This document shows positions 1,907 through 5,245 of a stretch of 64,000 nt of DNA, piece after piece (position 1 is the stretch's first letter; the number at the start of each line of letters is the position of its first letter). Source of the DNA: Actinocorallia sp. API 0066 (lineage in GTDB: Bacteria; Actinomycetota; Actinomycetes; Streptosporangiales; Streptosporangiaceae). A model generated the notes under the pieces. That model saw nothing but the letters and a program-made list of their open reading frames with translations, made no database searches and was not told the DNA's origin. Position numbers and translations under genes: made by a program. The DNA is taken from contig NZ_JAJLQY010000006.1 of the NCBI RefSeq assembly GCF_020991275.1, positions 248,001-312,000 of the forward strand, given 5' to 3'.

Positions 1907-1953
1907 GTCCCTCCCTCTGGCCGCAGGGGGATCAGCCGGTCAGAGGGAGGGAC
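1907..1953 (-). terminator. Terminator overlapping the HEPN gene stop codon
   Basis: Perfect 13-bp arms, GTCCCTCCCTCTG (1907-1919) and CAGAGGGAGGGAC (1941-1953), with a 21-nt loop. One arm lies inside the last codons of the HEPN gene, so on the minus strand the hairpin forms at its stop codon. Confidence 0.6.
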
Positions 1954-2372
1954 TGCTGGGTGGGGATGTGCAGGGTGTCCTCGACGAGGGTGATGAAGGT
2001 TTCGGTGTGGTGGAGGAGGTCTTCGGCCTCGGCGGGGGTGGTGGCGGCGGGGAGGCCGGCCTCGGCGGCGGCGCGGGTGGGGGCGCCCGCGGCGAAGAAG
2101 GCGGCCCACTCGGCGAGCAGGGGCTCGGCCTCGGCGAGCTGCACCCAGGCCGGGCGGGGGCGGCCACGGGCCGGGGCGACGGGGCCGCGCACCCGCAGGA
2201 CGGCGGCGGCGGCGCGGAGCGCGGCGAGGTGCGCGGTGGCGTAGCGGACGTTCGCATGGGTGGACTCCGCCGCTTCCGCGAGAAGGCGACGGGCGTCACG
2301 CAACAGGTGCCTGGCGTGGGTAGGGGCTGCCTTCCGGATCGGCGGACCCGGAGGCATCGGATGCACGGTCAT
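1932..2372 (-). CDS. SAV_6107-family HEPN domain protein
   Basis: A 146-residue, all-helical, Ala/Leu/Arg-rich protein. The pattern HARHLLRDARRLLAEA, then STHANVRYATAHLAALRAAAAVL, then WVQLAEAEPLLAEWAAFFAAGA, matches the actinobacterial SAV_6107 HEPN family as I know it. In other genomes this family often sits beside translesion polymerase genes; no polymerase is present here. The ATG at 2372 has a perfect AAGGAGG seven bases upstream. A promoter carrying a perfect LexA box lies ~190 bp upstream on the same strand, so expression in the SOS response is likely. HEPN domains can be RNases or nucleotidyltransferase partners; no RX4-6H catalytic motif is obvious, so activity is unknown. Confidence 0.75.
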   Translation of the reverse strand: MTVHPMPPGPPIRKAAPTHARHLLRDARRLLAEAAESTHANVRYATAHLAALRAAAAVLRVRGPVAPARGRPRPAWVQLAEAEPLLAEWAAFFAAGAPTRAAAEAGLPAATTPAEAEDLLHHTETFITLVEDTLHIPTQQSLPLTG

Positions 2373-2556
2373 GGCATTGCCTCCTTATCGGCCGGACGGA
2401 GCCGTACGGCGCCCTCCGGGACGAACTCCTCGCGCCCTGCGCCGCGGCGCCGACCGGACCGGAGGCTTCCCCTCCTCCAGCCCGGCCGGAGCGAACCGAC
2501 AGGTTTGCGCTGCCACCGGCTCGCCTTGCCTCGGATGCGGGCCGCGAGTCCCGCAC

Positions 2557-2614
2557 CATGTCGAACACCGGTTCGACATGCCCCCAGTAAACCCGACGCG
2601 TCATCGTTCGTCAA
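2557..2614 (-). promoter_or_regulatory. SOS promoter: -35/-10 plus perfect LexA box
   Basis: On the minus strand: TTGACG (2609-2614), a 17-bp spacer, TTTACT (2586-2591), then CATGTCGAAC-ACCG-GTTCGACATG (2557-2580). The last is a perfect 10-bp dyad containing CGAAC-N4-GTTCG, the LexA operator of mycobacteria and Gram-positives. The operator covers the predicted start site, the classic repressing position. The transcript runs toward the HEPN gene. Confidence 0.85.
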
Positions 2615-2814
2615 TACGTTCGATTACCGCGCCTCGCGATCCGAAGATCCCCAGGTCCACCGGGTACTCAGATGAGAACACAGACCACTGACAGAACGCT
2701 TCGACGCCTGTGGATAACTCCCGAAGCCCCCGCCCCACGGGGCCTCCCGCGTACCGCGGAAACCGGCGCCCGGCGCACGCCGGAACGTCCGGCGGCCGCG
2801 GCTAGGCTTCGGCC
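2615..2814. promoter_or_regulatory. Divergent upstream region; leaderless promoter of the YbaK gene
   Basis: No gene is supported. At the right end TAGGCT (2803-2808) lies 6 nt before the ATG of the YbaK-like gene, a leaderless -10 element. The rest shows no further dyad that I trust. Confidence 0.5.
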
Positions 2815-3778: not shown

Positions 3779-5245
3779 ATGAGCATGCGGGCAGGTCCGG
3801 CAAGTCGGGATCCGAATTTCCGCGGAATCGACGTCCCGGCACTCTCCCAGCTGATCCGCCAGCTGGAACGTGCCGCCGACGACATCAACGCCTGGCTCAC
3901 CGCCAACCCCCCGCCCCTGGGCGTCGCCGCCGACGCCTACCGCGACGCCCGCGCCGTCCAGCAGTGGGTCGCCGACCAGCTCGGCATGCTGACCCGCCGC
4001 CGCAACACGGCGCAGTCCCAGTGGGACAATCCCGACATCGCCGTCGAAACGCCCAACGCGCCTGACCCGGACATCCCCACCGTCACGCCGACGGCGCCCG
4101 GCGACGGCCCCCAGGACGTCACCCCGCCGCCCACGGCCCCGGACCTCGCCGCCGGCGACCCCGACACCGGCGGCACCCCCACCGACGTGGGCGGCGGCAC
4201 CGCCGCGCCCGGCTCCGGCACGGGCACCACCGACGACGCCCCCGCCACCCCCACCGGCGGCGACACCCCGACGACCGACGGCGACCAGCCCCCGCAGACC
4301 CACGGCTCAGGCGGCTCCCCCACCTCACCCGCCCAGAACCCGTCCGCGCCGCCGGAGCAGCCCGCCGAGCCCCCGGCGCCCGCCCCCGGCGACCACGGCT
4401 CCGGCGACCACGGCTCCGGCCACAACGGCGAGCAGCCCCCGGCCAGCCACAACGGCGGCCCCGGAGGCCACTCCGGCACCCCCGGCGAGCACCAGCCGGG
4501 CCACGACGGCAGCGCCCACGACCCGTCCCACCACAGCGGCTCCGGCGACCAGCACCACAACGGCCAGGACCCGCACGCGCACGACCCGTCGCACAGCGGC
4601 GCGGACCACGGCGACCACCCGCACGACAGCGGCACCCAGGACCCCGGAGCACACGACGGCAGTACGGGCGACCACCCGCACGACGGCAGCGCACAGGACC
4701 CCGCCGCGCAGGACGGCGGCACGCAGGAGCCCGGAGCGCACGACAGCGGGACCGGCGGCCAGCAGGAGCCCGGGGCACAGCCGCAGGACGGTGCGGGAGC
4801 GCCCGACCCGGCCGACGGCGCCGGGCCGGGCGGTGGTGCCGCTGACGCGCCCGGCGGGGTCGCGGGTGGGGTGACGGACGCCTACGCGACGATCGAGGCG
4901 CTGGAAAGCGGCGACGTCGCGGCGCAGACGTGGGAGCGGCTTGAGGCGAACGCCGACGACGGCGACTACACGGCCGCGTTCTACGAGCGGCTCGGCAGCG
5001 AGGGGACGGCCCAGCTCATCGACGCCGCGGGCGGCGACCAGGCCAAGCTCGACGCCATCGCCGAGTCGCTGAGCACCGCCGACGCGCAACTGGACTTCGA
5101 CGCCGCGTGGGTCGCCGACGTCAGGGCCGAGGCGGTCGCGCTCGGCGCGGGCGACGACGCGGCGCGGGTGCTCGGCGCCACCCCGATGGGGTCGGCCAGC
5201 GGTACCAGACTCACCACGGCGGGCGCGGGCGCGCAGGCCGACTGA
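3779..5245 (+). CDS. His/Asp/Gly-rich low-complexity protein with helical end domains; possible type VII substrate
   Basis: I do not recognise this 488-residue protein. Three parts are visible. Residues 1-90 are helical (LSQLIRQLERAADDINAWL, then DARAVQQWVADQLGMLTRRR), like the N-terminal bundle of actinobacterial ESX/WXG-type proteins. Residues ~90-355 are low-complexity, first Pro/Thr/Gly-rich, then (about 206-327) built of short His/Asp/Gly/Ser units such as GDHGSGDHGSG and HDPSHHSGSGDQHHNG. Residues ~362-488 form an Ala/Asp-rich helical domain with TAAFYERLGSEGTAQLIDAA, a pattern found behind WXG domains in long actinobacterial proteins. No signal peptide or membrane helix. GGGAG lies 6 nt before the ATG. 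A small Pro-rich protein follows 20 bp downstream. Secretion and metal binding are guesses. Confidence 0.6.
   Translation: MSMRAGPASRDPNFRGIDVPALSQLIRQLERAADDINAWLTANPPPLGVAADAYRDARAVQQWVADQLGMLTRRRNTAQSQWDNPDIAVETPNAPDPDIPTVTPTAPGDGPQDVTPPPTAPDLAAGDPDTGGTPTDVGGGTAAPGSGTGTTDDAPATPTGGDTPTTDGDQPPQTHGSGGSPTSPAQNPSAPPEQPAEPPAPAPGDHGSGDHGSGHNGEQPPASHNGGPGGHSGTPGEHQPGHDGSAHDPSHHSGSGDQHHNGQDPHAHDPSHSGADHGDHPHDSGTQDPGAHDGSTGDHPHDGSAQDPAAQDGGTQEPGAHDSGTGGQQEPGAQPQDGAGAPDPADGAGPGGGAADAPGGVAGGVTDAYATIEALESGDVAAQTWERLEANADDGDYTAAFYERLGSEGTAQLIDAAGGDQAKLDAIAESLSTADAQLDFDAAWVADVRAEAVALGAGDDAARVLGATPMGSASGTRLTTAGAGAQAD

Follow-up and report, generated by a model that had tools for sequence, protein, structure and literature searches.

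The minus-strand promoter at positions 2557–2623 of the window, the whole stretch of 64,000 nucleotides from Actinocorallia sp. API 0066 analysed here, quite probably places under SOS control a conserved actinobacterial damage gene, whose product would be a HEPN protein accessory to translesion synthesis and whose mRNA would open with a cis-acting leader RNA. The LexA promoter itself is of a known kind; what is new is the class-wide link between the HEPN gene and translesion polymerases, together with a conserved folded leader RNA that is so far undescribed.

The HEPN promoter and its LexA operator

The promoter consists of a −35 hexamer TTGACG (2609..2614, minus strand) and, after a spacer of 17 bp, a −10 hexamer TTTACT (2586..2591, minus strand); hexamer and spacing are identical at the −35 in the close relatives L017, L018, L035, L040 and L047, and the −10 is likewise kept in relatives. 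A 24-bp dyad with perfect 10-bp arms, CATGTCGAAC-CGGT-GTTCGACATG (2557..2580, minus strand), begins 5 bp past the −10. Inside it lies the LexA box TCGAACCGGTGTTCGA (2576–2561, minus strand), which matches TCGAACN4GTTCGA at 12 of 12 positions and overlaps the expected transcription start. The initial annotation had reported this promoter, the perfect dyad with CGAAC-N4-GTTCG and a HEPN gene downstream, and all its coordinates were borne out when the sequence was re-read: the next minus-strand gene after the operator is indeed the ORF 2372–1932, which matches PF18726 with E=7e-30 and is preceded by a Shine-Dalgarno-like AAGGAGG (2380..2386, minus strand). The annotation was silent on the leader of 184 nt that separates the operator from the start codon. 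A degenerate second LexA-like box, TCGAACGTATTGACGA (9/12; 2608..2623, minus strand), overlaps the −35. Comparison with relatives indicates that many other genera of the window's family have a full second box 39–40 bp upstream, of which the window and the relatives nearest to it have only this 9/12 remnant on the −35.

Taken alone, the window would leave room for the view that the operator is a chance palindrome and no LexA site, as LexA sites with one mismatch occur in it at the chance rate (4 observed, 3.7 expected), although the exact CGAACN4GTTCG at the operator is its sole copy there. Genome-wide, the exact 14-mer is found 32 times, against once for a reversed control, and the perfect 16-mer box twice in 7.0 Mb, at the operator and inside a polyketide synthase (PKS) ORF. 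What decides the matter is footprinting over 201 unique HEPN loci from across the class, in which the 900 bp upstream of the gene were compared with downstream and with shuffled upstream DNA. Boxes matching at least 11 of 12 positions were present upstream at 118/201 loci, downstream at 1/201 and in shuffled DNA at 0/201; perfect boxes numbered 79, 0 and 0, respectively. Most orthologous HEPN promoters sampled across the class thus retain the LexA box, and the dyad of the window sits over the start of a promoter. Because of this conservation, the chance palindrome is rejected as extremely improbable. In Streptomyces-like loci the box is degraded, mostly to 8–10/12; in the Streptomyces loci L050-L076 and L119-L198 it has decayed to approximately CCGAACN4GATCGA, 40 bp upstream.

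The source genome encodes lexA and has LexA boxes of 10–11/12 before lexA and PolX, in tandem in both cases, and before ImuA', after which come ImuB and DnaE2, so this type of box is evidently in use there. The pair before the PolX-type DNA polymerase gene comprises two 11/12 boxes 17 bp apart, directly upstream of it (G000:C33:528697-528729; L218 2198-2230), and an 11/12 box immediately precedes ImuA' in the ImuA'-ImuB-DnaE2 mutasome cassette (G000:C44:127571; L217 from 2072). Two further 11/12 boxes, 23 bp apart, lie by small ORFs (G000:C1:564728 and 564751; L205, L206). Control of the HEPN promoter by LexA, and hence by the SOS response, as the initial annotation had proposed, is thus strongly supported by the sequence of the operator, its position on the promoter and its class-wide conservation, from which we infer that LexA binds there and that the gene is induced by DNA damage.

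Studies of LexA regulons in other Actinobacteria are consistent with such control. In S. venezuelae the consensus, tCGAAC-N4-GNNCGa, is the same, as is the position of the boxes on promoters, and DnaE2 and DinP are among the targets; however, the main text of that work (PMC9380542) mentions no HEPN gene, and the Streptomyces box before the HEPN gene is weak, a PafBC-type site being dominant. In Corynebacterium glutamicum, the 'conserved hypothetical' gene cg2381 belongs to the LexA regulon and is induced by ciprofloxacin (M 3.86), without having been recognised as HEPN (PMC5055667). This gene is three gene numbers away from mraZ (cg2378), which resembles the HEPN-mraZ layout of small-genome Mycobacteriaceae, and control scans of the C. 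glutamicum genome gave one PF18726 match. Judged by the synteny with mraZ and this single match, rather than by its own sequence, cg2381 is probably the HEPN ortholog.

A second damage-responsive element may contribute to the regulation. The RecA-NDp promoter of mycobacteria, on which PafBC acts, reads TTGTCRGTG-N8-TANNNT (PMC6789036), and matches of at least 11/12 were found upstream of 105/201 HEPN genes, that is, about half of those sampled, against 0 in controls. In many families the site starts ~30 nt before the LexA box, which places LexA over the start of a PafBC-type promoter. The window differs in having only a candidate, CTGTCAGTG-N8-TCTCAT (2672..2694, minus strand), separate from the LexA promoter; it matches at 10/12, a level of at least 10/12 being reached also in 2/201 downstream controls. 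A strong PafBC-type site, TTGTCAGTG, is kept at the HEPN promoter of the Streptomyces loci L050-L076 and L119-L198. Within the window's family, several genera (L021-L045, L113) have a RecA-NDp promoter between the second leader hairpin (H2, see below) and the HEPN start. Judging from its position past the hairpins, it would give a second, short-leader mRNA lacking both of them.

A folded leader RNA

Two hairpins past the operator are seen in relatives, and both are also predicted for the leader of the window: H1 (2534..2557, minus strand), with the loop ACUCGCGG, and H2 (2448..2491, minus strand), with the loop AGGGGAAG at 2466–2473. The fold energy of the leader as a whole is unremarkable (z −1.8); the evidence comes from covariation. 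The H1 stem covaries at positions 2–9 among 41 relatives. For H2, pairing in the 15-bp stem amounts to 88%, both sides vary in 14 of the 15 pairs, and double-change cells number 82 as compared with 26 in shuffled alignments (0/500 shuffles), while pairing drops to 40–56% in slid controls. The loops of both hairpins are invariant, that of H2 being [AU]GGGGAAG with a G-C closing pair.

A covariance model (R1) finds one H2 in the window, at 52 bits, the next match scoring 19 bits, and a single H2 in the source genome. Matches were obtained in 21 of 25 other genomes, and for 19 of these 21 it is the HEPN leader that holds the best one; as the model was partly built from the same loci, the informative part of this result is the lack of copies elsewhere. 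Rfam gave no match at the gathering score for 13 relatives, and its matches in the window were weak, below threshold and at chance level, so that assignment to a known RNA family was rejected. In other orders, H2 precedes DUF6504-HEPN-DnaE2 operons; Streptomyces, Mycobacteriaceae and several more families lack it. A related first hairpin, with the loop NYUCGACC, also occurs in other orders, and either type of loop is present in 55 of 89 leaders, against 2.4 in shuffled sequences. Owing to its variable loop length, the class-wide NYUCGACC hairpin shows only weak covariation at fixed offsets. In L080, L083, L089, L104, L109 and similar loci, the motif CUUCCCC lies 35–60 nt past the H2 loop GGGGAAG; it is present in most DnaE2-type leaders with H2 and absent from the window's family. 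The complementarity of the two motifs suggests a pseudoknot or switch in the leaders of DUF6504-HEPN-DnaE2 operons.

Several accounts of the leader were considered. ORFs do overlap it, yet between orders the stems are replaced while the loops are kept, and a coding sequence or small ORF was discarded; so was a multi-copy sRNA family, H2 being single-copy and located in cis to the HEPN gene. The hairpins might merely be transcription terminators or attenuators that need no trans factor, which their GC-rich stems of 14–20 bp within a leader would suit. However, those of the window lack a following U-tract, and termination has no need of an invariant 8-nt loop that stays fixed while the stem sequence is swapped between orders; we therefore regard this reading as rather unlikely. 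Alternatively, they could be targets or decoys of an sRNA with C-rich loops such as 6C, pairing with the GGGGAAG loop. The source genome does encode a 6C RNA with C-rich loops, and PMC6789036 cites a paper on C. glutamicum 6C whose title connects this RNA with the SOS response. Nevertheless, the 6C loop of this genome offers no more than ~5 contiguous pairs (GGGGA/UCCCC), and DnaE2-type leaders, though not those of the window's family, possess a better partner in cis in the CUUCCCC located 35–60 nt downstream. Given this weak complementarity, pairing with 6C was set aside as improbable. Most likely, H1 and H2 are parts of a cis-acting RNA element which would act via a protein or RNA supplied in trans.

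The HEPN protein and its genomic partners

The gene encodes a SAV_6107-family HEPN protein of 146 aa (1932..2372, minus strand, ATG at 2372), with a profile score of 103.8 bits against a curated cut-off of 27.2. Its AlphaFold model has a pLDDT of 89.8, and the best PDB matches found with Foldseek are HEPN domains, albeit weak ones with E-values >0.1; together with the profile match, the model identifies the fold as HEPN. HEPN RNases bear an Rx4-6H motif in helix 4. At this position no conserved Rx4-6H was found, incidental matches occurring in 7 of 68 sequences, and the near-invariant R43-Y-x-x-A-H48 is placed in helix 2, with RF..AY in its stead in Mycobacteriaceae.

The initial annotation had suggested that the product acts alone as an SOS effector, and had noted that HEPN proteins are often RNases or toxins; on this reading it would slow growth after DNA damage. 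This would be in line with the presence of many RNase toxins in the HEPN superfamily (PMC3710099) and with the monocistronic state of the gene in the window. Moreover, a LexA-controlled mRNA with a long, structured 5′ leader recalls the mRNAs of tisB and other SOS toxins of E. coli; the sequences are unrelated, however, the loops found here do not vary between orders, and the product is no small membrane toxin. The missing catalytic motif speaks against the RNase or toxin, in agreement with the published survey of HEPN proteins, which lists the SAV_6107 family as devoid of a conserved catalytic motif (PMC3710099). Neither an antitoxin-like gene nor an MNT partner adjoins the gene, its neighbours being a convergent FMN reductase gene and a divergent tRNA-editing gene, and unlike mobile toxin modules it is chromosomal, syntenic, conserved class-wide and often found with polymerases. 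We thus rejected this reading as unlikely; the model and the alignment are best explained by a non-catalytic helical bundle that shares with HEPN toxins their common fold.

The genomic partners point to another role. Among 40 HEPN loci spread over the class, a translesion polymerase follows the HEPN gene in 28, DnaE2 in 19/40 and DinB in 9/40, the latter often preceded by a methyltransferase; a DUF6504 gene lies between the LexA box and the HEPN gene in 18/40. With DnaE2 or methyltransferase-DinB, and often DUF6504, as operon partners in most orders, the protein most likely assists translesion synthesis as an accessory or adaptor, a role that suits it better than that of a stand-alone effector. 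The ImuA'-ImuB-DnaE2 mutasome of mycobacteria (PMC10421592), a cassette also present in the source genome, likewise provides damage-inducible accessory genes for the error-prone DnaE2; nevertheless, HEPN and DUF6504 are other proteins, and DUF6504-HEPN-DnaE2 constitutes a distinct arrangement.

The link to translesion synthesis is not universal, because neither the Mycobacteriaceae nor the window's family has an adjoining polymerase. In Mycobacteriaceae, the HEPN gene precedes DUF3040 and mraZ, the latter at 1.3–1.8 kb in loci from small genomes, and the LexA box is mostly 10–12/12. No polymerase was found beside the HEPN gene in the window or in 48 loci of its family, for which mostly ~1.8 kb downstream was read. 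The absence of an adjacent polymerase, from which the stand-alone character had been deduced, accordingly holds for this genome and these 48 family loci but not for the gene family, with its DnaE2 and DinB partners; SOS control and the solitary position stand here, but being on its own is a trait of the window's family, polymerases being found beside the gene elsewhere. A methyltransferase-DinB-DUF3040 group is located on the same contig, ~77 kb from the HEPN gene, and has no LexA box of at least 10/12. The simplest history would be that the HEPN gene separated from DinB and retained the operator. On the other side of the promoter, a divergent gene encodes a protein with an aminoacyl-tRNA editing domain (PF04073; 2815..3279, plus strand), a conserved neighbour of HEPN loci that does not evidently belong to the SOS unit. 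Further on, 3779–5245 (plus strand) encodes a protein of 488 aa with no Pfam match and a long middle part rich in Pro, Gly, His and Asp.

Proposed regulation and possible role in mutagenesis

The following scheme would account for these observations. LexA bound to the operator over the transcription start would block the sigma-70-type promoter until RecA-ssDNA triggers its self-cleavage, whereupon the HEPN mRNA would be made. In many relatives, and possibly also in the window, a PafBC-type element would add activation. The leader hairpins may then set the translation or stability of the mRNA via a trans-acting partner, and the product may serve, without catalytic activity of its own, as an accessory or adaptor in translesion synthesis, its gene having presumably left the polymerase genes in the window's lineage while the operator was kept. 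It is tempting to speculate, though only tentatively, that SAV_6107 HEPN proteins are an unrecognised accessory subunit of actinobacterial translesion synthesis, and that the hairpins form a new damage-linked riboregulator gating HEPN and error-prone polymerase operons after the release of LexA.

DnaE2 and DinB drive damage-induced mutation in Actinobacteria, including antibiotic producers and pathogens. Found in the SOS operons of these polymerases across the class and devoid of the RNase motif, the HEPN protein is a direct candidate for an accessory factor still missing from the picture. The invariant-loop RNA in the leaders of these operons would lock error-prone synthesis a second time, at the post-transcriptional level.
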